A stretch of 26,308 bases of DNA from a virus. The notes beneath the pieces are model-generated. The model saw nothing but the letters and a program-made list of their open reading frames with translations, did not search any database and was not told the origin of the DNA. The stretch covers positions 1 to 26,308 of IMG/VR virus record IMGVR_UViG_3300036719_002953; one strand, 5' to 3'. The position numbers and the translations under genes were made by a program. Positions 1-14,839 of the stretch are shown here, piece by piece; position 1 is the first letter of the stretch, and the number at the start of each line of letters is the position of its first letter.

Positions 1-1080
1 GACTCGTCGCCAGACAGCGACGGAAAAGACCAGCCAAGCAGCAGCGACGGTGACGGCGACCGCCGGGAGCCGACCGGAGATGGAGATGGAGATGGAGACG
101 GGGGCTCTGACCCCAGTCCCGACGCTGACAAAGACTTCAAGACTGGCGAGACTACAAGGGCTGCCCTCAAGTCCATCCGCGAAAGCGGCGGCTTCTCGGT
201 CAACCCATTCACGGCCGATAGCCCGACAACTGGCTACATGGTCTCTGTCGTCCCGGCCGCCGAGACGATTCTTGATTCTCCGGATGCCGTGACCGACGAA
301 GTCATGGAGAAGTTTCTCCGAGACAACGAGCAGGCTTTCAAGGCCCGGCCGACGCTCCATGTGGGGGGTTGGCTGGACAAGGCAACCGGGAAGGTATATC
401 TTGATCTGTCCGAGCAGTTCGACGATCTCGACGACGCGATTGATTCGGCCGAAAGCACGAATCAGTTGGCGATCTGGGATTTGAACGCCAAGGACGAAAT
501 CCGGAAGGAGAATTACGATGGCAGACGGACAAGAAAAAGAAAAGAATCTCGTTCGGTTCGATCTCCCGGGCGGGCTCGACGCAAAGTCGATCGCAGCGGC
601 GATCCGCGAACACGGTCGCCGGATTCTCGACGAAGAGAAGGCGAAGAAAGAGCAACAGCCCAAGAAAGACTGATCGCCACCGCTTCTCGCGCGATGGGCA
701 GCAAGATGCCCCGCGTCGAGGTTCGCGACATCGGCGAGGCGATCGCGGTCTACGATCACCGCGACGATGTGCTGCTCGTCTCGCCGACGCTTCCGGATGA
801 GTTGCAGGCGGGATACGCCTCGCAGGCGAACCCCTACATCCACGAGGCGGCTCACCGGATTCACGCCAGGGCGAACCCTCAGTCCTACGAGGCCGCCGTA
901 GCGGTCGAGTTCTCCGCCGAGCAGCGGAGCCTCATCGCTGAACAAGTCTCGGCAGTCGCTGCGATCAACGGTCGCGAGTTGGTGGCCGAGGTTCTCGCCG
1001 GAGTGATGGCCGGCAAGATGTACGGACACGACATCCTGTCGCTCGCCCGGGAGGTGGCCGGAAGTGAGGTGATTCCGTGA
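1..1080 (+). CDS. 3' part of an upstream phage gene, reading in frame into a HEAAH metallopeptidase-like segment
   Basis: The frame is open from the window edge, so the true start lies upstream; an in-frame ATG at 238 falls inside a conserved domain and is unlikely to be the start. Codons 1-55 are a D/G/S-rich linker containing a GATGGA microsatellite. Codons 63-165 hold a domain I recall from actinophage and planctomycete phage head genes (GGFSVNPFT, then HVGGW and VYLDL). Codons about 173-225 are arginine-rich, have poor third-position GC and look like an out-of-frame shadow of the small gene at 518-673. From about codon 232 coding character returns: IHEAAHR at 838-858 (HExxH, zinc ligands and catalytic Glu) and ELVAEVLAG with a candidate third ligand Glu at 988, as in the C-terminal metallopeptidase-like domain of Mu F-like minor head proteins. 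It may really be two genes (up to about 530, and about 694-1080) lacking an intervening stop. GTGA overlaps the next gene. Confidence 0.6.
   Translation, partial: DSSPDSDGKDQPSSSDGDGDRREPTGDGDGDGDGGSDPSPDADKDFKTGETTRAALKSIRESGGFSVNPFTADSPTTGYMVSVVPAAETILDSPDAVTDEVMEKFLRDNEQAFKARPTLHVGGWLDKATGKVYLDLSEQFDDLDDAIDSAESTNQLAIWDLNAKDEIRKENYDGRRTRKRKESRSVRSPGRARRKVDRSGDPRTRSPDSRRREGEERATAQERLIATASRAMGSKMPRVEVRDIGEAIAVYDHRDDVLLVSPTLPDELQAGYASQANPYIHEAAHRIHARANPQSYEAAVAVEFSAEQRSLIAEQVSAVAAINGRELVAEVLAGVMAGKMYGHDILSLAREVAGSEVIP
76..99 (+). repeat. GGAGAT hexanucleotide microsatellite
   Basis: Three perfect GGAGAT units followed by GGAGAC encode a Gly-Asp dipeptide run inside an acidic D/G/S-rich linker. 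Such a linker usually separates domains, and the hexamer period keeps the frame if the copy number changes. Confidence 0.7.
518..673 (+). CDS. Small 51-residue phage protein nested in another frame
   Basis: ATG at 518 is preceded by a strong Shine-Dalgarno sequence (GGAAGGAG, 502-509) at 8-base spacing, and the frame ends with TGA at 671-673. Third codon positions are mostly G/C here, while the overlapping +1-frame sequence becomes artefactually Arg-rich, so this frame looks like the coding one. The product is charged, with a short amphipathic segment (LDAKSIAAAIREHGRRI) followed by a Lys/Glu/Gln tail. I do not recognise a family. It lies exactly where the upstream conserved domain ends and before the HEAAH segment begins, which suggests an ordinary small gene between two genes whose separating stop is missing. 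Confidence 0.6.
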   Translation: MADGQEKEKNLVRFDLPGGLDAKSIAAAIREHGRRILDEEKAKKEQQPKKD

Positions 1081-4000
1081 TTTTCCGCGAGGCGACTCTT
1101 CGCGGCGGGGATTACCGCGCGATCTTCGCCGAGACCGAACATCGCGCTGCTGGCTGTGGCCAAAACGCCGACGGCACGTTCGCGCCGAAGAACCAGTGCC
1201 AGGAAGACGGGGCAGGGGGCGGACTTCCTCCCGCAGCCCGCGACAACTCCTGGAAGACGAGCGACAGTGAGGTGACGTTCTCTGGTGGCTCGAAGATCGA
1301 GTCTCTGGCGATCGCCCAGCCCAAGGCTGTGGCCGCCACGATGAAGCGACTGGGGGTCGATGACCTCGACTCGATCGTTGCGATTGGCGGCGGCGCTGTT
1401 CGCGGTTCGCGAATCTCGGTCGGCGACATGGACGACGAGGCGATCACGGTCTCGCTCACCTCGCCGGTCGATCCATCCGATCCCTCTAGTCCGAACGCAA
1501 CCACCAGCGTGATGCTGATGGAGGGCTTTGGAGAAGGCGAGACTGTCGTCGACTACTCCGACTTCCATCCGGGCGGAACGCTGGGAGACGCGAAGGCCCA
1601 GGAGGGTGGCGAGAACAACGCGAAGCGGCTACGACTGGCGAGCATCCTGAAGGAGCGAATGCTCGAATCGCTGCTTGCCGCCGACAAGGCCGGCATCTCG
1701 AAGGCCGCAACGATGGCGGTCGGCAGAAAGGGCGACCCTTACGTCAAGGGCTACCGGCTCTGGCCGACGTTCGGCTTCGACGCCAAGGTTCCCAAGTCGT
1801 TGATGGCGAAGATTCCGGACGAGATTCTGCTCAAGGCCACAGGCGTCGACATTCCCTCGCAAGGCACCGGAAGGATTCCGCGAGAGGTCGTCATCAAGAA
1901 CCTTCGCCAACAGGTGAAGAGCGTGACGATCCAGCAACTCATGCAGTTCCGCGCCGGCGAGAACTGGTGGACTGACAACGGCAGTTCCATCGAGATGTCG
2001 CTCGACCTGAAGGACAAGAACTCCCTGGGGTACAAGAAGTTCCAGGAGGAGTTGAAGAAACTGCCCGCCCTGAAGAAGCGAAACGAAGGCCGCTCCTGGT
2101 ATCCGATCGACGACTTCGAGCGTCGTTCGTGCGACGGCTCCGACAAGGACGAGACTGGCCGGTTCGCGGCAGGCAACGACTGCGGCGGGCAGGGCCAAAG
2201 CGGCGGCTCGTCGCCCAGGCCTCCATCGCGAGCCAAGCGGGAGCAGTGGCGGAAGTCTGAGGACGACGTTGTCTTCCTCGACTCGAAGTCCCTCAAGGAG
2301 GGCTCGCCCGTCATCGGCGGCGAGCGGCTCCACGAACTGGCGATCGAGAGACCCAAGAACGTCGCCGCCGCGCTCGACGCAGTCGGCGTCAAAGACCTCG
2401 ACACGGCCGTCAAGATCGGCGGCGGCGCAATCCGAGGCGCAGACGTCCGCGTGCGAAACTTCGGGCCTGAGACTGTCAGCATCTTCATCTCTTCGCCGAT
2501 CGACCCTGACGACGAGGACGTCGGCAGCGTCATCACCAGCGTAGACCTGACCAAGTACGACGATGGCCTGGAGGTCTCATACGGAGGCCTAAACACACCC
2601 AAAGGCGTCTCCGACCCATCGCGACTTGACGCGGGGGCTCGCGACAAGACTCGCCTTCGGATCGCAAGTCTCATGCAGGAGCGAATGATCGAGTCGCTCA
2701 TGTCGGCCCAGAAAGCCGGCGCGGTTCGCGCCTCGACCTACGCCGCAGGCGACAGCGACGATCCCTACTACCAGGGCTATCGGCTCTGGCCGCAGTTCGG
2801 ATTCGACGCGAAGTTGGATTTGACTCAGTACCAAGTCCCTCCCGAGATCGTCCTCGCCTCCTTCAAGAAGAAGGCCCCTGAGTCGGCGAGCGAGGCCGCC
2901 AAGCAGGCCAAGAAACTCACCTCCAAGGGCTTCACGCTTCAGCAGTTGATCTCCACTCGCGAGGGCAAGAAGTGGTGGGACGACAACGGCTCAAGCGTTG
3001 ATATGACCATCGACCTCAAGGACAGGAAGTCCCTGGGCTACAAGAAGTTGGCGAGGCTCAAGAAACTGCTTCCCAAACTCAAGGAGCGGAACGTCGCCGA
3101 GGGTCGAACCCTTTTGGGCTGGCTGATCGAGGAGGTGAGCCGCCGCTCGATGTCGGTGATGGGATTCTTTGGCGGCCTGAGTCGGGCGATCGAGCAGCGG
3201 GACTGCGGGCCATCAGACAAGAAGGCAGACGGCACGTTCGCCCCCGGCAACGACTGCCAGGAAGGTGCAGGGGGAGGTGACTCGCCTAAGCCCGGAGGCG
3301 AAAAGCCCAGGTCGGTGATCTGGACGCCGGGCCAGTCCGCAGGGCTCGTGACCTCGAAGGCCAGAGAGAATCCACCTACCACGCGCAGCGACGACGGGAA
3401 GAGAATCGCCTCGACGTCGATCCCCGACGCGCATGTCTACGAGGGCCGGGGCGGCCGCGAGTTCGTCGGCACCGTGGACGTCGGCGGCGCGTTGGCGTCG
3501 GAGCAAGACACGATCCGAGGCGAGAAAATCGACACGGGCAAGAAGGTGCTTGACGGCGCAGAGTCCGAGTACATTCTCGCCGCCCTGGAAGAGCAAGTCC
3601 GCGAGGCCACGGGGCGAGGCATCGAGCCCAAGTTCTATTCACCAGAGGAGCGAGAGGAGCAACTGGCGGCCTTCGCCGGGATGATCCCCGAAGTCCGCGG
3701 CGGGCGAACGAAGTCTGGAGCCATGATCGAGCAGGAAGACGCGGAACACTTGTTCCGAGTCCTTCAGGCGATCACCAGCCCCAACGCATCGCCGTTCATC
3801 AATATGCAGCGAACTGACTCGCTGCTTCAGAAGTTCTTCTATGGCGACGGGCTCGTCACGACCTCCGACTCGCTCGGCGTGACCGGAGCCGGGATCAAGA
3901 AGTCGCTCCGCAGGTTCCAGAAGATCGTAGACACGCTCGGCAAGCGAACCGATGGCAGCATCGACACGGCGGCAGGGCTTCGAGCGGCAAGGGAGTTGCT

Positions 4001-6998
4001 CCAGGGCCGGTCGCTCCGCGCTGGCGACATCGAGAAGTTCTTCGCGGACTTCGCCTCTCCTGGCGAGAAGAAGGGAACATGGAAGCCCGGCTCGTATCTC
4101 GTCGATGAGGTCGTTCCGGTCTTCTCGACGTTCGGCCCGAAGGTCGGCCCGTTCTACGGCAACAACAACGGCGACCTCGACCCGCTGACGGCCGACGTCT
4201 GGTTCTCTCGAACCTGGGGCCGGGTCACCGGCGAGTTGGTGATTCCAGGCAGTCCGACCAAGTCAGCCAAGCAGGCCACGGAACTGGCGAAGGTGATCGG
4301 CAAGGCCAGCGACGACCAGTTGCACGGCATCTCCGGCGCCGCCCTCGCGGACGCCGTGAAGCAAACTAGCGAGACGGGGGCCGTCAGCGATGTACTTCGC
4401 GCCTGGGCTGGTGCGAGGCTCAGGCACTACGCCCGAGGTGACTACAAGGAGAAGACAGGCACCGGCGGCAAACTGAATCGGCTCGCGAAGAACATCGTCG
4501 AGAACGACACCGCACTCATCGGCGACCCAGGCTCTGGCAGTCGGCGAAGCCACATGATCCGCCTCATGCGGGAAGTCTCGCGAAAGACTGGCACTCCCGT
4601 CGCCTACCTACAGGACATTCTCTGGCAGGACGAGCAGGATGCTTACGGCGCCCTCGGCGCCATGACCGCGACGAACGTCGGCGAACCGTCGCTCTACTCT
4701 GACCAGATCAGAAAACTCGCCGCCAACGATGGCAAAAGCCGCAAGCAACGAGCCAAGGCCGATCGCGGCTATCGTCGCAACTACGAGCAGCCCGAGCCCT
4801 TCGTCGACGACTACGAGCGCGGCGGCCGCGAGCAGATGCTGTGGGACGCCGCATTGGCTCACCTGAGCGACGAAGAGTTCGCCGAGGCCGTCATCAAGTT
4901 AGCCGAGAAGGCGAGGCCGACCGAGGAGCATCGCGAGGAGCGCCGCAACTTCGCAGCGCTCGACTACGGGGTCGAGATTCGCTCCGCCGACTGCGGCCGC
5001 GACGAGGGAGGGAAGTTCGGGCCGAAGAACGAGTGCCAGGAAGAAGGCAGCGGCAGCGACGATCCGCCTCCGCCGTCCTGGGCGAGCAACATCGAACACA
5101 GCATGAAGAAGTCGCGAGGCTACGACGACCCCGCAAACAAGCAGGCGTGGCTGAACCTGTCTGGCACGTTCTATCCAGTCAGGGGAGATCACGGTGAGTT
5201 CGCCCTCAATAACGGAGTCGAGGGCGGCGGCGAAGACCTCCTTGACGCAGGGTGGCTTCGCGTCGCTGGCGTTGGATCGGGGACGCTCTACGTCGGCAAC
5301 TCTGGCGGAAAGCCTCCTACCAAGTCGCAAATATCGGCATTGCGGGACTTCGCGATTTCAACCGGAGTCGTGAACCAAGTTGTCTTCGATGACGGGCGAT
5401 CTCGTCGCGGGCGAGTTCTCTGGAGCAAGGAAGAATCCCGCTCTGCCGACTGCGGCCGCCAAGACGGCGGGATGTTCGGAGACGGCAACACCTGCGCCAA
5501 GGGAGACGAAGGACTCTCGAACAGCAAGGGCGAATCGTTCCGTGGCGTTCGTCGCAAGTCTGACAAGACCCAGACGAAGGTGGCCCGCAAACTCTATCAG
5601 ATGCGGGTTCCCGAGAAGAACCTCAAGGGGCTCGTCCGCAACCTGGGCGGCAAGGTGAGCAACACGTTCGTCGAGATCGACCCGACTCGCGGCGACGAAG
5701 GCGTGAACGTCTTCGTCCGCGATCGAGACAACAACGAGACGCACTACATCCACATCGGCTACTACGGCGCGACGATCTACACGACCGACACTAAGCCGGC
5801 CGGAGAAGTGTCTCGCATCCAGGCCGCCGCCAAGGAGTTCCTTCCCAAGACCATCGACAATCGCCTCTGGGGCGCGGGCAACGACTATCCGGTCTATGTC
5901 GTCAACAGCCCCGACGAGACGTCGAAGCAGTGGGCTGGCCTGTCGGCGAAGCAGCGGCTCAAAAACGAGCGTCGCTCCGCCGACTGCGGCCGCACGGATG
6001 ACGGGAAGTTCGGCCCGAAGAACGAGTGTCAGGAGGAGGGCAGCGGCAGCGGCAGCGAGGAGAAGAAGCCCTCAAAGGGTGCCTACCGCGACGCCGCAAA
6101 CCCGCTCGCCATCAAGCGAGTCCGAGAGGACATCGACAATGGCAACCTCCAGTATGCCGCCGAGAACATCGAGTTCTTGATGGAGTCGATGCCGCCTTCC
6201 GAGGTGGCGAAAGAACTTGGATTCAAGTCTTTTGATGTCGACGGGTCGTTTGACCGCGACTCGAAGAAAAAAGGCGGCATCCTTTCGTTCTTGCGGGGAG
6301 ACCCCGCCAAGTCTGCGGCGAACCATTTGGCGAAACTGGCTCTCGCGGCCAAGCACGAGCCGGGGCTCAAGGAATCGTCAATCAACTTCTCAAAGTTCAA
6401 CACGACCGTGGACTCGATTGCAGCAGAGGCCGGCATCACTCGCCTCTTTGATAAGTTGAAACTGGCTACCGCAATGGCAGGAGTGAAGGCTGCTTGCAAC
6501 CTGAAGACAGGCGCTATCACAGTGGTGCAGGATCGCGCCGGAGACCAGAAAGAACTCACCCGAGCCTATGATAATGGCTGGTTTTCGACGGACGATCCGT
6601 CGCACTACGTCTTGCACGAGTACGCTCACAAGTTGCAGCACGACGCGATCGCAAGAATGGCCGGCGGCGCGGACAAGATTACGCCCGAAGTCGTTGGAGG
6701 TCTTAGGTCGCAAATCATGGGCGCTATCTCGGCGATCAACAACTCACCGCCACCGCCCGGCCAAACAGGCGTTCTCGATCGCGCGATGGCTGTGTCGATG
6801 TACGGAATGACTGACCCGCTTGAGTTCTTTGCCGAATACTGGACTGGCGTCACGCTTGGGTACGTTAGGAATGACAAGCAGTTTGACATGATATTCTCGC
6901 TTGTCGGCATGGAGCCGCCAAAGAAGAGCGACTCCGCGACGGTTCGTTACGACGCCAGCGGATTCCCGGGCCGAAAACAAAAGAAAAAGAGGAAGTAG
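1077..6998 (+). CDS. 1973-residue composite phage head-region protein with six Cys-framed tags and a C-terminal HEYAH metallopeptidase-like domain
   Basis: The GTG start overlaps the previous TGA. Six motifs of the form C-G-x-G-x-F-x3-N-x-C, most preceded by basic residues, lie at residues 27-41, 352-369, 710-727, 1306-1320, 1459-1473 and 1637-1651. Between them are modules. Modules 1 and 2 (about 45-340 and 385-690) are paralogues sharing GYRLWP-FGFDAK, a WW-DNGSS box and LDLKD-SLGYKK, possibly GNAT-like. Module 3 (about 735-1295) contains LTADVWFSRTWGRVTGEL, like a region I recall in large phage polyvalent-type proteins. Module 4 (about 1330-1455) starts AWLNLSGTFYPV, resembling a small phage domain. 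Module 5 is unknown. Module 6 has HEYAH (H1847) and DPLEFFAEYW (Glu about 1916/1920), as in Mu F-like head proteins. It may be a polyprotein cut by the nearby prohead protease, a structural internal head protein, or fused genes. Confidence 0.8.
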   Translation: MIFREATLRGGDYRAIFAETEHRAAGCGQNADGTFAPKNQCQEDGAGGGLPPAARDNSWKTSDSEVTFSGGSKIESLAIAQPKAVAATMKRLGVDDLDSIVAIGGGAVRGSRISVGDMDDEAITVSLTSPVDPSDPSSPNATTSVMLMEGFGEGETVVDYSDFHPGGTLGDAKAQEGGENNAKRLRLASILKERMLESLLAADKAGISKAATMAVGRKGDPYVKGYRLWPTFGFDAKVPKSLMAKIPDEILLKATGVDIPSQGTGRIPREVVIKNLRQQVKSVTIQQLMQFRAGENWWTDNGSSIEMSLDLKDKNSLGYKKFQEELKKLPALKKRNEGRSWYPIDDFERRSCDGSDKDETGRFAAGNDCGGQGQSGGSSPRPPSRAKREQWRKSEDDVVFLDSKSLKEGSPVIGGERLHELAIERPKNVAAALDAVGVKDLDTAVKIGGGAIRGADVRVRNFGPETVSIFISSPIDPDDEDVGSVITSVDLTKYDDGLEVSYGGLNTPKGVSDPSRLDAGARDKTRLRIASLMQERMIESLMSAQKAGAVRASTYAAGDSDDPYYQGYRLWPQFGFDAKLDLTQYQVPPEIVLASFKKKAPESASEAAKQAKKLTSKGFTLQQLISTREGKKWWDDNGSSVDMTIDLKDRKSLGYKKLARLKKLLPKLKERNVAEGRTLLGWLIEEVSRRSMSVMGFFGGLSRAIEQRDCGPSDKKADGTFAPGNDCQEGAGGGDSPKPGGEKPRSVIWTPGQSAGLVTSKARENPPTTRSDDGKRIASTSIPDAHVYEGRGGREFVGTVDVGGALASEQDTIRGEKIDTGKKVLDGAESEYILAALEEQVREATGRGIEPKFYSPEEREEQLAAFAGMIPEVRGGRTKSGAMIEQEDAEHLFRVLQAITSPNASPFINMQRTDSLLQKFFYGDGLVTTSDSLGVTGAGIKKSLRRFQKIVDTLGKRTDGSIDTAAGLRAARELLQGRSLRAGDIEKFFADFASPGEKKGTWKPGSYLVDEVVPVFSTFGPKVGPFYGNNNGDLDPLTADVWFSRTWGRVTGELVIPGSPTKSAKQATELAKVIGKASDDQLHGISGAALADAVKQTSETGAVSDVLRAWAGARLRHYARGDYKEKTGTGGKLNRLAKNIVENDTALIGDPGSGSRRSHMIRLMREVSRKTGTPVAYLQDILWQDEQDAYGALGAMTATNVGEPSLYSDQIRKLAANDGKSRKQRAKADRGYRRNYEQPEPFVDDYERGGREQMLWDAALAHLSDEEFAEAVIKLAEKARPTEEHREERRNFAALDYGVEIRSADCGRDEGGKFGPKNECQEEGSGSDDPPPPSWASNIEHSMKKSRGYDDPANKQAWLNLSGTFYPVRGDHGEFALNNGVEGGGEDLLDAGWLRVAGVGSGTLYVGNSGGKPPTKSQISALRDFAISTGVVNQVVFDDGRSRRGRVLWSKEESRSADCGRQDGGMFGDGNTCAKGDEGLSNSKGESFRGVRRKSDKTQTKVARKLYQMRVPEKNLKGLVRNLGGKVSNTFVEIDPTRGDEGVNVFVRDRDNNETHYIHIGYYGATIYTTDTKPAGEVSRIQAAAKEFLPKTIDNRLWGAGNDYPVYVVNSPDETSKQWAGLSAKQRLKNERRSADCGRTDDGKFGPKNECQEEGSGSGSEEKKPSKGAYRDAANPLAIKRVREDIDNGNLQYAAENIEFLMESMPPSEVAKELGFKSFDVDGSFDRDSKKKGGILSFLRGDPAKSAANHLAKLALAAKHEPGLKESSINFSKFNTTVDSIAAEAGITRLFDKLKLATAMAGVKAACNLKTGAITVVQDRAGDQKELTRAYDNGWFSTDDPSHYVLHEYAHKLQHDAIARMAGGADKITPEVVGGLRSQIMGAISAINNSPPPPGQTGVLDRAMAVSMYGMTDPLEFFAEYWTGVTLGYVRNDKQFDMIFSLVGMEPPKKSDSATVRYDASGFPGRKQKKKRK

Positions 6999-7166
6999 AT
7001 GTTCATCGCCCCGCAGGAAGACGAGTCGCAGGAAGAGTTCCTGGCTCGCGTCGAGCAGGCCGCAAAACTGCTTGGCGGAAAGTCGCTCTACTCGCTCGCG
7101 AAGGGCAAGAAGCAGCCTGAGCCCGACAAGGAGGACGACAAGGATGTCGATTCCGGAGAAGTATAA
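6999..7166 (+). CDS. Small 55-residue phage protein of unknown function
   Basis: ATG at 6999 follows directly after the TAG of the composite gene, and the frame ends with TAA at 7164-7166. The product starts MFIAPQEDESQEEFLARVEQ and ends in a strongly acidic Lys/Asp/Glu tail; the centre can form one amphipathic helix. It overlaps the protease-fusion gene by 23 bases and contains that gene's ribosome binding site (AAGGAGG at about 7125). I do not recognise a family. Its position, third-position GC and tight packing support a real gene, perhaps an adaptor or translational coupling leader. An overlapping longer reading of the next gene from 6901 has no support. Confidence 0.6.
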   Translation: MFIAPQEDESQEEFLARVEQAAKLLGGKSLYSLAKGKKQPEPDKEDDKDVDSGEV

Positions 7167-9684
7167 GCACATCAACTTCAAGCCCCCGCAGGGAGCCCGC
7201 AAGGAGGCCGAGAAGTCCCTCGCGTGGCGTCGCGAGTTTGGTCGCGGCGGCACGGCCGTCGGCATCGCCAGGGCGAGAGACTTGGCAAACGGAGTCGAAC
7301 TCTCGCCGTCGACAGTCCGTCGCATGAAGGCGTTCTTCGATCGCCACCAGAAGAACAAGTCCGCGCCTGGCTGGAGCCCTGACGAGGACGGATTCCCGTC
7401 CAACTCCCGAATCGCGTGGGCCATGTGGGGCTCCGACGCCGGATGGTCGTGGGCCAAGAAGGTCGTCGAGCAGATGAACGCGGCAGACGAGAAGGAGCAG
7501 CGAGGCCTTCGTCCCTACGGCTCGACGCACGGCATGAGGCCGAAAGTCTACGTCGTCCACGGAGCCCCGTGCAGCGGCAAGAAAGACTACGTCGCCAAGC
7601 ACCTGGGCGAGAACGACGTCGTGTTCGACTACGACGAGGTCATGGCGGCGGTCTCCGGGCGGCCGATTTACGAGCCGAACCGCAATCTCGTCTCTTATTG
7701 TCTGGACATAAGAACCCTTATCCTGAAAAAAGCATTGCAGCGATCGGGAGCCGACAAGACCTGGATCATCACGACAAGAGTCGGCGACGACATGAAGTCG
7801 CAGTTGTCGGACATCCCAGTGAAGTACGTCCACATCGACACGCCGAAGGACGAGTGCCTCCAGCGACTGAAGCAGGACGAGAAGCGACAGCCCTTAGCCC
7901 AGGAGTTACGCCAAGTGATCGAAGAGTATTTCAAGACTGGCGACGAGGAGCAGCGTCGAGCCCCCTTGGCCCAGCCGGGCGTCGAGCGTCGATACATCGG
8001 CAACTTCGGCAACGACGAGCGGCTTGACCCGGAACTGCTTCGCATCGAGAAGCGGTCTGACCCCGAGACTGGCAAGCCTCGCACCTACATCATCGGCTAT
8101 GCGGCTCGCTTCCATCGCGACAGTTTGCTCTTGGGGGATTTCGTCGAGCAGATTGACCCAGGCGCGTTCGAGATCGTGACGAACCGACAGGACGAGGACG
8201 GGAAGCCCCTGGAGACTCGCTGCCTCTTTAACCACGACCCCAATCACCTCCTGGGTCGGTTTCCGACGACCATGCGAATGGTCGTCGACGACAAGGGGCT
8301 GCGGTACGAGTGCCTGCTCCCCGAGACTCGCAGTGATCTCGAAGAATTGATCGCCAGAGGCGACCTCAAGGGGTCTTCATTCTCTTTCGTCGTGAGCGAA
8401 GGCGGCGAGCGCTGGACGACGGAAAACGGCCAGTCGCGACGAATCGTGACGAAGGTGAAAGCCATCCTGGACTGCGGCCCCGTGACCTACCCAGCCTACA
8501 GCGATTCTAGTGTGTCGGTTGCGAAGCGGAGTTACGAGCAGTTCGTTGGCAAGCCGCAGCGAAAGCCGCGACGCAAGAGTCGGCTCAAGACGCTGGAGCG
8601 TAGGGCCGAGTCGCTGCGAGCCAGGATCGCCGCCGAGGCTTTTCTTGCCGAACGTCGCGACTGCGGCCGCGAGCAGGACGGGAAGTTCGGCTCCGAAAAC
8701 AAGTGCCAGGACGGGGCCGGCGGGGCATCTGGCAGTTCGGCATCCTTGGATCAGAACAAGGTTAGCGCGCAAGTGGCTTCGGTATCGGGAATCGGTCGGA
8801 CTTGGAAGGTGAACACGCAGAAGGACGGTAGCGTCCACATTAATGGGGCCGCAGGAGAAATCACAGTCAGCAAGAACGCGCCGGCGCACGGGGTCAAAGG
8901 GAAGAGCAATCTCCACTTCAACCCCAGCGGCGGAGGAAAAGAAATTGCGAAACTCGCCACCGACGCAGCAAAGGCGACCGGGTCTGAGACGGTCTCTGTA
9001 CAGTCATGGAGCCCGGAACACGACGAGGCCCTCAAGGCGAATGGGTTCAAGAAAACAGGCGGTGCTTTCACCAAGTCCGAGGATCACGACATTTGGGTCA
9101 AAGACTTGACGAAGGAAAAGAAGTCGTCCCGGTCTGAGCGACGCGACTGCGGCCGAGGCGACGACGGCAAGTTTGGCTCCGGCAACAAGTGCCAGGAGGA
9201 CGAAAGCAGCAGCAGCGAGCCCAAGTCTGGCAATCGGCCTCAAGGCAGCAAGGCCGAGAAAGCCGCAGCCGAGCAGCGGCCTCCCGTCGGCGAAGAGAGT
9301 CCCAAGTACATGGAACTCTCGCGGCCGATGACATCCGGCAAGGCGAAGGCGGCACAGAAGTTCGCCGACGCGGCCCGCAAGCGGCAGGAGGCGAAGACGA
9401 AGGAGAAGTCGACCGACGCCGGCGACGATGGCTCCGGCGTCCAGACCTGGAGCAAGGGCGACGCCTACCCGTGGACGGCGAAGCAAGTCGGCGACAGCAG
9501 CAAGGGCGGCTACGTCCAGGCGCAGCATCCTGACGGCACCAAGACGAAGAAGTACGAGTTTCCCGCCGGCAGCGATGGCTCTGATGCCTACCGCAAGGCC
9601 GAGGATGAGATCAAGCAGAAGAAGAAGCGGTCTCTCTCGATCAAGGCCGCCGAACTGCGGTCGTTCCTGGAAGCGAGGCGATGA
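7144..9684 (+). CDS. HK97-type (S78) prohead protease fused to N-terminal accessory and P-loop domains and two C-terminal Cys-tagged modules
   Basis: ATG at 7144 is chosen for its AAGGAGG about 10 bases upstream and because conserved sequence begins at once; it gives 846 residues, far longer than a typical prohead protease of about 200. Residues 5-110 match a domain familiar from phage genomes (NFKPPQ, GRGGTAVGIARARDLANG, SPDEDGFPS, AWAMWG). Residues 134-265 form a P-loop NTPase/kinase-like domain (Walker A GAPCSGKK at 140-147). Residues about 295-480 are the protease: candidate His364 in FNHD, Ser in GSSFSF (S411 or S412) and VTYPAYSDSSV. It should cleave the capsid delta region inside the prohead. 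The C-terminus carries two Cys tags (507-521 and 669-683), the first followed by a GNAT-like segment (ALKANGFKKTG), the second by a Lys-rich tail. Residues 180-200 lie in a locally AT-rich patch. It overlaps the next gene by ATGA. Confidence 0.85.
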   Translation: MSIPEKYKHINFKPPQGARKEAEKSLAWRREFGRGGTAVGIARARDLANGVELSPSTVRRMKAFFDRHQKNKSAPGWSPDEDGFPSNSRIAWAMWGSDAGWSWAKKVVEQMNAADEKEQRGLRPYGSTHGMRPKVYVVHGAPCSGKKDYVAKHLGENDVVFDYDEVMAAVSGRPIYEPNRNLVSYCLDIRTLILKKALQRSGADKTWIITTRVGDDMKSQLSDIPVKYVHIDTPKDECLQRLKQDEKRQPLAQELRQVIEEYFKTGDEEQRRAPLAQPGVERRYIGNFGNDERLDPELLRIEKRSDPETGKPRTYIIGYAARFHRDSLLLGDFVEQIDPGAFEIVTNRQDEDGKPLETRCLFNHDPNHLLGRFPTTMRMVVDDKGLRYECLLPETRSDLEELIARGDLKGSSFSFVVSEGGERWTTENGQSRRIVTKVKAILDCGPVTYPAYSDSSVSVAKRSYEQFVGKPQRKPRRKSRLKTLERRAESLRARIAAEAFLAERRDCGREQDGKFGSENKCQDGAGGASGSSASLDQNKVSAQVASVSGIGRTWKVNTQKDGSVHINGAAGEITVSKNAPAHGVKGKSNLHFNPSGGGKEIAKLATDAAKATGSETVSVQSWSPEHDEALKANGFKKTGGAFTKSEDHDIWVKDLTKEKKSSRSERRDCGRGDDGKFGSGNKCQEDESSSSEPKSGNRPQGSKAEKAAAEQRPPVGEESPKYMELSRPMTSGKAKAAQKFADAARKRQEAKTKEKSTDAGDDGSGVQTWSKGDAYPWTAKQVGDSSKGGYVQAQHPDGTKTKKYEFPAGSDGSDAYRKAEDEIKQKKKRSLSIKAAELRSFLEARR

Positions 9685-11660
9685 ACGGCATCGAGTGTCG
9701 CATCGCCTCGTTGCGGGCCTTCGTGGAGGCTCGCGACAGGCAGTTGGAACTGTCGTTCGGCGACGACAACTGCGGTCGACAAGAGGGCGGGAAGTTCGGC
9801 CCTGGCAACTCTTGCCAGGAAGACGGAGATGGCGGTCAGAGCGTCGCCGCGTCGATCCGTCGCCAAGCGGCCGAAACAGATGGCGCTTCGTTCAGTGGCG
9901 CAGACGTCCCGAAAGCGTTCGGCGCCGCCAAGAGCGTTAGGATTTCAGGCGCAGAAGACGCGCTGAAAGTCTTCGACTCGCTTGCTCGCGACGGCATGAC
10001 GTTCAGTCAGGCGATCGCGATGACTCCCGGAGCGAGAGAGAAAGACGCCGAGGTGCGAATCAGAGGCACTCATCGCTCTGATGGGTCTGGCTATATCTCG
10101 GCGGAGGTCATTGTTCCGCTCGACATTCCAACAGACCAGACCGGCGGCGAGGTTGAGTCTGTGCGAATCAAGACAGAGGTCGAGCGATTCTCAGAGGGGT
10201 CGGAGCAGCCCTCCGGCGTCACTCGATCTGGGGTCGCATTTGACTCGCCGGTGAAGTCGGGGCTTCACCTCGACCTTCTCTCAGTCTCCCGCTCGACCCA
10301 GCGGCTAATCGTCAAAGGTCACGAGGCGTTGAAGACGCCCGAAGCAGAGCGAACACCCGAGCAAGTGGCAGCGATCGAACTCGGAGCCAGAGTCGAGCGA
10401 CAAATCTCCTCGAAGATGCTCTCCATGATGGTTGACGCGATCTCAGCCGCCGAAGAGGCGGGCGTCGGCGCTGTCTACACCTACGGAGCCGGCGGAGGCA
10501 GCGGCTCCACAAACTTGGGCGAGAACCCAGACACCTATCGAGGCTACGCGCTCTGGGGGCGATTCGGCCTCGACGGAGTGGTCGTCAAGCCGGGATGGGG
10601 AGGTGAAGTGGACAGGAAACTCTCTGATATCGCCGACAGCCAGGATCATCCAGACCGAGGAGTGCTGACTGAGGAGTCGTGGCAGAAGTACCGGAGTGGT
10701 CAAAACTTGACCCTGCAAGACTTGATGGAAACCAAGCAAGGGGAGCGGTTCTGGAGGCAGTACGGCTCAGGGACGTACTTCGCGCTGAACCTGAAGGACA
10801 AGGACTCCAAGGGCTACAGAAAGTTTCTGAAAATGAAGAAGGCCGCCAACCGCGCTGGCAACTCTCGCGCGTTTTTTTGGTGGCTTGCCGAACACCGAGG
10901 TGACCCTATGGACTATTTCAAGATCGAAAAACGCAACTGCGGCAACGGCGCTGGCGGCTTCCAGAAGGGCAACACCTGCGCCGGGCAGGCCGTCGCTGAC
11001 GTAGCGGGCGGCGCCGCTAAAGGGGCTGTCGTTGGCGCTGCCGCAGCCGTCGGCAAAACCGGCGGCTTCCCTCCGGCGGTCGCCGCTGGGGCCGCGGGCG
11101 GCGCTGCCGTCGGCGCGGTGAAGGGCCTCTACGACAACCGGATGCGACCCACCCGGGCCGGCAAGGCGATCAAGGCGATCGGAACGTCGGACGAGCAAGT
11201 CGCGTCGATGGTGAAGGGCCTGGGCGGAAGCCCGAAGTCGATCGCCGAGGCGGACGGCAAGTCTGCGGTAACGCTTTCGGTTAAGGACAAGGACGGCAAG
11301 TCGCAGTTCGATGTCCGGATGACCAAGTCCGAGGTGCGAATCAAGCCCGCGTCAGGGCGACAGAACCTCACCGCAGGCGACATCAAGCAGATCAAGAAGA
11401 TCGCCGAGGAGAACTCGCCCAAGAGCGTCAAGGTCGTGGTCGATGCCGTCCCGACGTCGGTGCTGGCGAAGATCGTCAAGGCGGGGGCTTCGCTAGCCCT
11501 GGACGCCACCGGGGCGCTCGTGGCGGCGTTCGTTGTGCCTTCTGTTCCGGCAATCGCAGGCACCGCAATCGAAGCGACCACCGGCATTGATATCGAGAAG
11601 ACCAAGGCGGCCCAGTGGGTGGGCGAGAAAGTCTTGGGCAACCTTCCCAAGAGGAGATAA
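9681..11660 (+). CDS. 659-residue Cys-tagged phage protein: third LWxxFGFD module plus glycine-rich membrane-like C-terminus
   Basis: ATG overlaps the previous TGA. After a 30-residue leader comes a Cys tag (residues 31-45), then a module homologous to modules 1 and 2 of the composite protein (YRGYALWGRFGLDGV, LTLQDLMETKQGERFW, LNLKDKDSKGYRKF). A second tag (420-433) introduces a different part: a Gly/Ala-rich glycine-zipper-like stretch at about 437-485, a charged domain, and a hydrophobic segment at about 601-629. Such segments suggest membrane insertion, as in ejected internal head (pilot) proteins or holins; this is inference. An in-frame ATG at 10908, preceded by GAGGTGA, could give an internally initiated 25 kDa product consisting of the second tag and the membrane-like part alone. 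Confidence 0.75.
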   Translation: MNGIECRIASLRAFVEARDRQLELSFGDDNCGRQEGGKFGPGNSCQEDGDGGQSVAASIRRQAAETDGASFSGADVPKAFGAAKSVRISGAEDALKVFDSLARDGMTFSQAIAMTPGAREKDAEVRIRGTHRSDGSGYISAEVIVPLDIPTDQTGGEVESVRIKTEVERFSEGSEQPSGVTRSGVAFDSPVKSGLHLDLLSVSRSTQRLIVKGHEALKTPEAERTPEQVAAIELGARVERQISSKMLSMMVDAISAAEEAGVGAVYTYGAGGGSGSTNLGENPDTYRGYALWGRFGLDGVVVKPGWGGEVDRKLSDIADSQDHPDRGVLTEESWQKYRSGQNLTLQDLMETKQGERFWRQYGSGTYFALNLKDKDSKGYRKFLKMKKAANRAGNSRAFFWWLAEHRGDPMDYFKIEKRNCGNGAGGFQKGNTCAGQAVADVAGGAAKGAVVGAAAAVGKTGGFPPAVAAGAAGGAAVGAVKGLYDNRMRPTRAGKAIKAIGTSDEQVASMVKGLGGSPKSIAEADGKSAVTLSVKDKDGKSQFDVRMTKSEVRIKPASGRQNLTAGDIKQIKKIAEENSPKSVKVVVDAVPTSVLAKIVKAGASLALDATGALVAAFVVPSVPAIAGTAIEATTGIDIEKTKAAQWVGEKVLGNLPKRR

Positions 11661-11854: not shown

Positions 11855-11960
11855 CTTAGTGCGCTACTTTTAGTCGCTCGCTCGCCTTGTTTAGTGTGAA
11901 TGTTGTCAGTCGCTTTTCGCGGCTCGTCCAACACACCCGCAGCAAGGAATGCGAACCACG
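11855..11960 (+). other. Intergenic leader of the major capsid gene
   Basis: About 105 bases without a gene, AT-richer than the surroundings, between the terminator-like palindrome and the capsid start. It contains AAGGA at 11944-11948 as the ribosome binding site for the ATG at 11961. A promoter for separate high-level capsid transcription would make sense here, but I see no convincing -35/-10 pair. Confidence 0.4.
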
Positions 11961-13484
11961 ATGGAAGCCAACGCCAACGCCAAGGTCAAGACTCTGCTCG
12001 ACGAACTCGCCGCCGTGCTGGCCGAGATGGGCGCGATTCAGGACGAGGAGATGCCCGCTGACGCCCGCAACATGGACGAGGCGATGGACGACGAGGACGA
12101 CGACGAGGAAGAGGATCGCGGCGGCTATCCCACCGAGGAGAAGGAAGAGGAGGAGGTCGAGAAGGCCTCCTACAAGAAGCGGATGGCCAAGGAGGAGGAA
12201 GTCGAGGACGCTGAGGTGTCCGACGAGGAGAAGGAGAAGAAACTCCGCTGCCTCTGCTCCCGCGCCGAGAAACTCCGCGACAAGATCAAGTTTTACGAGG
12301 GGGTCGCCGCGAAGGAACTCGAACTGCGGGCCGTCCTCGACAAGTCCACCCCCGCTTCCCGCACCTCTGCCAAGGAGAGCCGATCAGTGCAGATTTATCA
12401 CAACCTCCCCGGCGCTGGTCGCCTCAAGAACTTCAAGGGCGCGAATGCTGAGGAGCGGGCCTACCGCGCCGGTCAGTACTTCCGGGCCACGCTGCTCGGC
12501 GACAAGAACGCCGCTCGGTGGTGTGCCGACCACGGCGTCGAGGCTCGCGCCCAGGTCGAGGGCGTGAACTCGAAGGGGGGTACATTTGTACAGGACGAGA
12601 TCCTCAACGAGATCATCGTCCTTGTCGAGGAGTACGGTGCCTTCCCGGCCAACGCTCGCAACCTCCAGATGAAGTCGGACACCCTCGTGATCCCCCGGCG
12701 GATTGGGGGTCTCCAGAGTTACTTTGTCGGCGAGAACACGAGTATCGGAGAAAGTGACGCGGCCTGGGATCGGGTGCAGTTGGTCTGCAAGAAGGCGGCC
12801 TGTGCCAACCGGATTTCTACCGAGTTGCTCGAAGACTCCGTCATTGGGCTCGCCGATTATTTGACCGGCGAGGTGGCGAGGAGCATCGCGGAGTTGATCG
12901 ACACCGTCGGCTTCGTCGGAACCGGCATCTCCGACCACGGCGGAATGATCGGTGTCTGCACGAAGATTGTCGACGGCACCCACAACGCCAGCCTTGTGAC
13001 CGCCGCCGGCGGCAACACTTCGGCCCTCACCCTTGACGTCGACGACCTCATCGCGACTGCCGGCCGACTCCCGCTTTATGCGAGGGCTCAAAGCCGATGG
13101 TACATGAGTCCCGCCGTCTTTGCGGCCAGCGTCCAGCGGCTCGGTCTGGTCAACAACGTGGGGCTCTCGGGCGGCAACACCGCCGCGAACCTCTCGGCTC
13201 CGACCGAACTGCGTCTGCTCGGCTCGCCGGTGGTCTTTGTTCACACGATGTCCAGCGTGGTCGGTGCCGACCCCGGCGTGGTCAAGGCTCTCTACGGCGA
13301 CCTGTCGCTGTCGAGCATCTACGCGACCCGGCGTGGCGTGACGATCAAGACCAGCGAGGATCGCTACCTGGAACAGGACGCTACCTTGATGGTCGCCACG
13401 ACGAGGTTCGATTGCATTACGCACGACTGCGGCGACAACGTCAAGGCTGGCCCGATCGTGGCCCTCCGGACTGCTGCTTCTTGA
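11961..13484 (+). CDS. HK97-fold major capsid protein with acidic N-terminal delta-like domain
   Basis: Forms the icosahedral shell. Start chosen at 11961 (MEANANAKVKT) because AAGGA lies 12 bases upstream; the ATG at 11949 directly abuts AAGGA and is less likely. Residues about 1-135 are very acidic and coiled-coil-like (runs of D/E, then EKLRDKIKFYEG and ELELRAVLDK), typical of the HK97 delta domain that acts as a built-in scaffold and is removed by the prohead protease; cleavage is expected near SAKESRSVQ (about residue 137-145), which is inference. The mature part has the usual family features: AYRAGQYFRA, GGTFVQDEILNEIIVLV, DTLVIPRR, YFVGE, AWDRVQLVCKKAACANRISTEL, GLADYLTGEVARSIA. Closest remembered relatives are planctomycete prophage capsids. 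Confidence 0.93.
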   Translation: MEANANAKVKTLLDELAAVLAEMGAIQDEEMPADARNMDEAMDDEDDDEEEDRGGYPTEEKEEEEVEKASYKKRMAKEEEVEDAEVSDEEKEKKLRCLCSRAEKLRDKIKFYEGVAAKELELRAVLDKSTPASRTSAKESRSVQIYHNLPGAGRLKNFKGANAEERAYRAGQYFRATLLGDKNAARWCADHGVEARAQVEGVNSKGGTFVQDEILNEIIVLVEEYGAFPANARNLQMKSDTLVIPRRIGGLQSYFVGENTSIGESDAAWDRVQLVCKKAACANRISTELLEDSVIGLADYLTGEVARSIAELIDTVGFVGTGISDHGGMIGVCTKIVDGTHNASLVTAAGGNTSALTLDVDDLIATAGRLPLYARAQSRWYMSPAVFAASVQRLGLVNNVGLSGGNTAANLSAPTELRLLGSPVVFVHTMSSVVGADPGVVKALYGDLSLSSIYATRRGVTIKTSEDRYLEQDATLMVATTRFDCITHDCGDNVKAGPIVALRTAAS

Positions 13485-14012: not shown

Positions 14013-14058
14013 GGGCATGGATGCCCAAGCCGTCTCTCTCCCCATATAGAGGCTTGGG
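14013..14058 (+). promoter_or_regulatory. Two mutually exclusive hairpins before the glycosyltransferase-like gene
   Basis: GGGCAT (14013-14018) can pair with ATGCCC (14021-14026), and CCCAAGCC (14024-14031) can pair with GGCTTGGG (14051-14058). The arms share CCC, so both cannot form together. The second stem ends one base before the ATG at 14060 and abuts the AGAGG ribosome binding site, so it could limit translation. Whether it acts is unknown; if the ATG at 14021 is used, most of it is coding sequence. Confidence 0.35.
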
Positions 14059-14059
14059 A

Positions 14060-14839
14060 ATGCGAGTTGTTGTTGGTAACGTCGAGCATGATGTAAAGGT
14101 CGTCGGAGTTCTTTCGGCTCCTCGCCTGGGCTTCATGGACAATTTCTATTGTTCAGTCCAGGCGTTCTCCCAGTTTGGCATTCCCATCACAAAGGGAACT
14201 GGTGCTTTCTGGGATCAGACCATGTACAGGCTTCTCTCTGAGAACTGCAAAGAGGAGACCGGGAACGACTTCATCATCACGATGGATTACGATTCCGTAT
14301 ACGAGCCCGACTGCGTGTCGAGGCTTGTCTCGGCCGCTCTCATCTCCGGCTACGATGCCGTCGCGCCGCTCCAGACGAAGCGAGACGACCAGCGGCTTCT
14401 GTTCATGCCGAAGGGCGTCGTCGGCGAGCGAGGCACGGTCTCGCTCCCAAGGGAGTGGTGGGAGAAGCCCGTCCAGCCCGTGGACAGCGCTCACTTCGGC
14501 CTGACAGTGATTCGCTGCTCGGCCCTCCGTCGCCTGCCGAAGCCCTGGTTTCTCGGCATCCCAAACGAGGATGGCGGCTGGGATGACGTCGATGACACCA
14601 AGCAGGCCAGGATTGACCCCGATATGCAATTCTGGCGTCAGTGGCGAGAGTGCGGCAACACGCTTGCGATCTGCCCGCAGGTTGCGATCGGCCATGCCGA
14701 ACTCGTCATCACTTGGCCCGACCGGCGACTCAAAGCGGTTCACCAGTATCCGAACCACTACTGGCAAGCGGGCGGGAGGAGACCACCGGAGGCTTGGGGC
14801 TCCCCTGAACACGCCGCCAACTCTGAGGTGAATGCGTAA
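14060..14839 (+). CDS. Phage-encoded glycosyltransferase-like protein (GT-A type)
   Basis: Start at 14060 chosen for AGAGG seven bases upstream and because family sequence begins near KVVGVLSAPR; an in-frame ATG at 14021 would add 13 residues but lacks a well-spaced binding site. The protein has a nucleotide-sugar transferase pattern: an N-terminal hydrophobic strand, DFIITMDYDSVYEPDCV with a DxD metal/nucleotide site, VDSAHFGLTVIRCSAL, KPWFLGIPNEDG, and DPDMQFWRQWRECGNT followed by IGHAEL. This matches a family I remember in planctomycete prophages, where it sits beside capsid genes. It may glycosylate capsid or tail proteins, or host surface glycans; the acceptor cannot be read from sequence. 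Confidence 0.75.
   Translation: MRVVVGNVEHDVKVVGVLSAPRLGFMDNFYCSVQAFSQFGIPITKGTGAFWDQTMYRLLSENCKEETGNDFIITMDYDSVYEPDCVSRLVSAALISGYDAVAPLQTKRDDQRLLFMPKGVVGERGTVSLPREWWEKPVQPVDSAHFGLTVIRCSALRRLPKPWFLGIPNEDGGWDDVDDTKQARIDPDMQFWRQWRECGNTLAICPQVAIGHAELVITWPDRRLKAVHQYPNHYWQAGGRRPPEAWGSPEHAANSEVNA

Follow-up and report, generated by a model that had tools for sequence, protein, structure and literature searches.

A two-cysteine tag at the module junctions of head-block fusion proteins in a tailed phage: a candidate crossover point and marker of protease-released cargo

Why do several head genes of one phage repeat the same short two-cysteine peptide, each time in front of another domain? The question is raised by IMG/VR viral record IMGVR_UViG_3300036719_002953, which was analyzed over its entire length (26,308 bases, hereafter the window) and represents part of a phage genome. 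Its (+) strand carries, in order, the C-terminus of a portal gene, open reading frame (ORF) 2, a gene for an S78 prohead protease fusion, ORF4, an HK97-type major capsid gene, and connector and tail genes. Our answer, in which we place moderate confidence, is that the peptide, here called the tag, marks the junctions between modules in cargo destined for the capsid interior, that it serves as a crossover site, and that the S78 protease would cut before it and free the cargo. The ten tags of the window, each with its nearby E-x-R motif, are as follows:

1155..1199, (+), tag 1, CGQNADGTFAPKNQC; E-x-R at 1137-1145
2130..2183, (+), tag 2, divergent, CDGSDKDETGRFAAGNDC; E-x-R at 2118-2126
3204..3257, (+), tag 3, CGPSDKKADGTFAPGNDC; E-x-R at 3192-3200
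4992..5036, (+), tag 4, CGRDEGGKFGPKNEC; E-x-R at 4974-4982
5451..5495, (+), tag 5, CGRQDGGMFGDGNTC; E-x-R at 5433-5441
5985..6029, (+), tag 6, CGRTDDGKFGPKNEC; E-x-R at 5967-5975
8662..8706, (+), tag 7, CGREQDGKFGSENKC; E-x-R at 8650-8658
9148..9192, (+), tag 8, CGRGDDGKFGSGNKC; E-x-R at 9136-9144
9771..9815, (+), tag 9, CGRQEGGKFGPGNSC; E-x-R at 9726-9734, within a leader helix
10938..10979, (+), tag 10, CGNGAGGFQKGNTC; E-x-R at 10926-10934

All ten peptides were read in frame on the (+) strand exactly where a preliminary description of this DNA had placed them, and the C-G start given there holds for nine of them, whereas tag 2 (2130-2183) starts with C-D. A tag profile was built from related loci, and the window's frames, shuffled 20 times, served as the null: nine of the ten tags scored 22-35 bits and tag 2 scored 9.4 bits, against a shuffle maximum of 8.1 bits, and no score above 5 bits was obtained in the window outside the ten tags. 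A strict form of the motif at the DNA level gave 5 matches in the window versus 0 in 100 dinucleotide shuffles. In fetched viral contigs, the profile detected 474 tags in 302 open frames, clearly separated from the background. The tags had been thought to be limited to three genes; the portal gene makes a fourth. L009, a 36.9-kb record of this phage that extends beyond the window, shows the window's first gene to be the portal gene and carries an eleventh tag in it, a few codons before the window begins. A position 10-31 residues from the N-terminus, also proposed earlier, applies to ORF2 (residue 27) and ORF4 (residue 31), whereas the protease tags are internal (residues 507 and 669 if the ATG at 7144 is taken as the start).

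Module borders and crossover points

Compared with its relatives, the window contains one additional tag-plus-module unit in ORF2 and one in the protease gene:

5037-5450, (+), module 4, absent in L007 and L010
8707-9147, (+), module 7 (protease gene), absent in L002

The relatives carry hybrid tags. In L007, the 30 nt upstream of the tag are identical to the flank of window tag 4 (30/30), and the first 30 nt of the tag itself are identical to window tag 5 (30/30). At the site of the missing module 7 in L002, the left flank agrees at 30/30 positions and the tag DNA agrees with the second of the two window tags bordering the module at 27-28/30, while the hybrid tag at the missing module 4 in L010 shows a less clean match. 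Over all tag genes, the junction in the shorter partner of an indel fell at a tag in 75 of 157 cases (expected, 25.9), the events having been de-duplicated by module content only and hence not being fully independent. Thus, the tags are supported as module borders and DNA crossover points, clearly in two relatives and statistically in general; this property had escaped the preliminary description.

The E-x-R motif, cleavage and competing explanations

In the window, E-x-R lies no more than 20 residues before each of the ten tags (10/10). In S78-positive records, it was found within 14 residues before 63 of 85 tags (shuffles, 14.9, standard deviation 3.1) and in 12 of 80 cases in a control segment, whereas in records without detectable S78, its pre-tag frequency was 0/11. 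The difference between S78-positive and S78-lacking records has a Fisher p of 2e-6 by tag and 4e-4 by record, on counts that are not independent because the tags are related by descent. The same motif recurs in the capsid protein: 43 of 49 distinct sequences have it in the linker, variable in length and sequence, that joins the N-terminal part to the shell, and in the clade of the window it is followed by S-V:

12375-12383, (+), E-x-R of the capsid protein (ESR|S), before the shell domain

The capsid E-x-R region is likely, by sequence, the region of the maturation cut; in HK97, cleavage of the capsid protein occurs at K103/S104, where the chain is rather unstructured (PMC10275583). Because E-x-R before tags goes together with S78 and is found again in the capsid linker, and because the HK97 cut likewise has a basic residue and then Ser, we infer that cleavage probably takes place after E-x-R, just upstream of the tag, which would stay on the freed cargo.

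The mechanism that we propose would run as follows. The phage strings effector-like domains behind the portal, the S78 prohead protease and other head-block proteins, each domain being introduced by the tag together with a flexible Gly/Ser/Asp-rich stretch. Homologous recombination between alike tags would add, remove or swap one tag-plus-domain unit. The prohead protease would cut at E-x-R shortly before each tag, so that the fusions would be split inside the prohead into separate cargo proteins, each with a tag at its N-terminus, and the freed cargo would be ejected along with the DNA. As a conjecture, a disulfide or a metal joining the two cysteines may hold the tag in a small loop.

Besides the shared descent of the counted tags, several observations weigh against this mechanism. 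About half of the indel junctions lie away from tags, many of them representing one repeated event in the N-terminal part of the protease. The S78-positive records L020, L067, L087, L064, L022 and L035 have no pre-tag E-x-R, although the capsid proteins of L020, L064 and L087 contain the motif. The tag persists in phages without detectable S78, and therefore cutting cannot be its sole use. AlphaFold2 gives the tag no fold that would account for the cysteines. The earlier suggestion of a prohead-protease cleavage site was retained in modified form: the tie to processing is supported, with E-x-R before the tags of S78 phages and shared with the likely capsid site, whereas the cut probably does not fall in the tag, as the tag also occurs without detectable S78, S49 or ClpP, and there without E-x-R.

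The tags fall in segments with a pLDDT (predicted local distance difference test) below 50 in both AlphaFold2 models; such predicted disorder is consistent with a linker that is cut. Disorder, the Gly-rich linkers behind the tags, the crossovers at tags and the existence of tags without any detectable head protease would equally suit a mere flexible, recombination-friendly linker that spread by duplication, in which case the fusions would stay whole and no protease would be involved. We consider this unlikely, since the two cysteines, F and N are almost invariant over hundreds of tags, which is unexpected for a spacer, and since the pre-tag E-x-R co-occurs with S78 and reappears in the linker of the capsid protein.

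The conservation of the cysteines also speaks for a clasp, closed by a disulfide or a metal, that would link cargo to cargo or stabilize it during ejection. Both cysteines are kept in 473 of 474 profile matches (partly circular, given that two-cysteine tags went into the profile), 12 of the 13 cysteines of ORF2 and 4 of the 5 of ORF4 are located in tags, and tags of 14, 15 and 18 residues occur, which indicates that different loop lengths are tolerated. Nevertheless, a clasp as the function of the tag appears about as doubtful as a passive linker: the pLDDT is below 50, and most frames have one tag, whose two cysteines could not supply the four ligands of a metal site unless tags pair. The features relevant to a zinc ribbon or finger are the same, namely, two Cys per tag, a single tag in 197 of 302 frames and a pLDDT below 50. 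Within the junction-and-release mechanism, a disulfide or a metal bound jointly by several tags may plausibly exist; for the disulfide or metal link raised in the preliminary description, the evidence is divided between the near-invariance of the cysteines and the predicted disorder of the tag. Protein splicing, considered in view of N-x-C, was rejected, as 14-18 residues leave no space for a splicing domain.

A further reading makes the tag a retention or loading signal of the capsid interior, binding shell, scaffold or portal in the manner of the T4 leaders, which measure 7-65 residues on cargo (PMC9026906). The tags are indeed in head-block genes, and N-terminal tags come after a short helical leader, R-[IYH]-A-S-L-x-x-F-x-[EQ]-x-R, which recurs at many related loci, is found in the window at 9696-9734, and has a tag no more than 40 residues downstream in 61 of its 68 occurrences. 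This reading seems still less probable than the previous two, because the portal and protease are packaged unaided and would have no use for a second signal, as many as six tags per chain would be redundant, and the capsid protein has no tag. Capsid-interior targeting, also proposed in the preliminary description, thus agrees with the location of the tags in head-block proteins, whereas the short helical leader fits such a function better than the tag does. Finally, cleavage by a module-borne metallopeptidase instead of S78, as Iyer 2017 (PMC5512222) proposes for polyvalent proteins, is very improbable: the window's fusions contain two HExxH modules, one with a gluzincin fold, but the presence of E-x-R before tags follows that of S78, the motif occurs again in the capsid protein, and the metallopeptidase module is found in only part of the relatives.

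Distribution of the tag and its relation to known systems

The main forms of the tag are [DN]CGTGAGGF[KQ]PGN[TD]C[AG]KGGGG and RSADCGRDEGGKFGSGN[KD]C[AQ]EDGGG. Exact DNA patterns were found in the viral collection in at least 120 stretches (14-residue form) and at least 103 stretches (15-residue form). Wide occurrence outside phages, which the preliminary description had named as a counter-argument, was looked for with the 14-residue pattern: run against genomes from 84,980 bacterial and archaeal species, it matched 10 stretches. About 3 of these look genuine: one lies in a portal-like gene of Singulisphaera acidiphila, and two lie on metagenome-bin contigs. Because the viral and cellular collections differ in size and composition, they can be contrasted only qualitatively. 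In S. acidiphila DSM 18658 (L146), a long KPNAST repeat comes after the 14-residue tag of the portal-like gene, an uncommon instance of the tag in a cultured bacterium. Planctomycetes were not supported as general hosts, since the tag was present in 1 of 392 genomes, the one already found.

Profile matches were obtained in 41 of 43 long records. Among the matches listed, the tags of long records lie in the head block around the portal and protease, and those of five records of 90-97 kb lie within ~15 kb of the portal gene. Tags were found with several portal types (PF04860, PF05136 and Mu portal), and therefore the tag is not bound to one head lineage. Of the 41 tag records, 12 show no S78, and obligatory pairing with S78 was accordingly rejected; some of these 12 records end near the portal, but nine others also gave no S49 and no ClpP match. 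A tblastn search with 24-residue tag peptides gave no match in isolated phages, which, for short glycine-rich queries, is weak evidence of absence. We tentatively extend the proposal, at somewhat less than even odds, to a general cassette grammar in uncultured tailed phages of several portal types, in which a leader or E-x-R site, a two-cysteine adaptor and any effector would be joined, packaged, cut free and injected, the adaptor DNA acting as the recombination site.

Fusions of portal, MuF and S78 proteins to effector domains that are presumed to be ejected have been published (PMC9503650, PMC5512222, PMC5576092). Polyvalent proteins and MuF polymorphic toxins resemble the present fusions in their ART, GNAT, kinase or metallopeptidase domains, in the predicted ejection with DNA and in extensive module shuffling; the passages of these papers retrieved by term search mention neither a shared two-cysteine junction tag nor an E-x-R site. 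In further contrast to those proteins, as far as they are covered there, up to six modules per protein occur here, with the same tag before each.

The internal proteins and Alt of T4 carry capsid-targeting leaders that are cut by gp21 (PMC9026906). They share with the mechanism proposed here a short leader, a prohead-protease cut in the head and ejected cargo, T4 Alt being an ADP-ribosyltransferase. However, T4 cuts after L/I-x-E, and no common retained tag is described (PMC9026906), whereas here the putative site is E-x-R and the tag also stands between domains. PT-VENN and other pre-toxin domains are border elements of bacterial polymorphic toxins (PMC3482391); by description, they are like the tag in being a conserved border before exchangeable C-terminal toxins and a proposed processing site, although they belong to bacterial secretion systems and the tag to phage heads. 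HK97 has an S78 protease and a capsid of the same family as here, and the basic residue followed by Ser at its cut corresponds to R followed by S at the presumed site. To our knowledge, HK97 has no cargo fusions and no tags.

Among isolated phages, Actinomycetia phage DSL-LC01 (OQ999401, L242) has a related module in a similar head block. Its linkers RDKTGKFA and RDAKGQF, which have no cysteine, resemble the tag core RDEGGKFG, and its Cys-framed stretch CRGGGLTAAGTKKC is also tag-like; no above-threshold match to the Cys-framed tag was obtained in this phage. A text search of open-access papers for four tag peptides found none of them, although figures, supplements, other spellings and papers outside the set searched could escape it. 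Effector fusions are already known; what appears to be undescribed is a shared Cys-framed junction that has E-x-R before it and is used in crossovers. Head-packaged phage effectors are likewise known, but not how many cargo domains enter one capsid, separate and swap. A short searchable tag would flag capsid cargo in metagenomic phages, in which few of the 140 clusters of post-tag sequences have Pfam names, and the set of tags supplies a directly testable S78 cut motif.

Cargo modules and neighbouring genes

Portal and S78 domains share frames with tags. The sequences before first tags formed 59 clusters, in which the main known domains were PF04860 in 8, PF05136 in 6, S78 in 3, and Mu portal and MuF in 1 each. 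Most of the 140 post-tag clusters have no Pfam name; ART-PolyVal, ADPrib_exo_Tox, ART, PARP, GNAT, Zeta toxin, ATLF, MuF (2 clusters) and S78_2 are among those named. No MuF domain was found in the window's proteins by domain scan. Effector-like domains are thus fused to the portal, MuF or head protease or are located in the head block. The modules distinguished in the window are as follows:

1200..2129, (+), module 1, paralogue of modules 2 and 9, weakly GNAT-like
2184-3203, (+), module 2, paralogue of module 1
9816-10937, (+), module 9, paralogue of module 1
6030..6995, (+), module 6, gluzincin-type metallopeptidase-like domain, HEYAH at 6615-6629

Modules 1, 2 and 9 are paralogues spread over two genes. 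Their comparison with GNATs gave Foldseek E-values of 0.04-0.3 (weak) and VIA Z-scores of about 5-6, so that they may be called GNAT-like at best. In module 6, H223, E224, H227, E292 and E296 are nearly invariant, and its model fold gave a VIA Z-score of 10.6 to ATLF-family chains (188 residues, root-mean-square deviation 3.9) and 6.8 to PPEP, with a Foldseek E-value of 0.63 at best; by these residues and the fold, it is a predicted gluzincin-type metallopeptidase, present in some relatives only. A Foldseek search against PDB found nothing at E ≤ 0.001 for either model, and the structural relations rest on the VIA Z-scores. HExxH motifs occur in two separate head fusions of the window, namely, in the portal cargo (841-855) and in module 6 (6615-6629).

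In L055 (5033-5740), a AKGGNGQTKSAAFKEWFGDSKV stretch stands behind each of two tags. The domain after the first tag, which has tblastn relatives in 35 phage records, is probably of the ART-PolyVal type.

The genes and domains of the head block are as follows:

1..1080, (+), portal fusion protein, C-terminal part: cargo after the portal's tag, in a frame shared with the portal Pfam domain in L009
841-855, (+), HEAAH, an HExxH motif read in the portal cargo
1077..6998, (+), ORF2, 1973 amino acids, six tags with a module behind each
7144..9684, (+), S78 prohead protease fusion, PF04586, E = 3e-31
~7549-7887, (+), AAA_33-like domain of the protease fusion
~8071-8541, (+), S78 domain of the protease fusion, with NHD and GSSFSF motifs (His and Ser motifs)
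9681..11660, (+), ORF4, 659 amino acids, helical leader and two tags, in the scaffold position with the protease gene on one side and the capsid gene on the other
11949..13484, (+), major capsid protein, tag-free, PF05065, E = 4e-32

The window thus contains an S78 domain with its His and Ser motifs adjoining an HK97-type capsid gene. Within the head-tail block, an ORF at 14021-14839 showed a weak similarity to glycosyltransferase family 2 (Pfam E = 4e-4).

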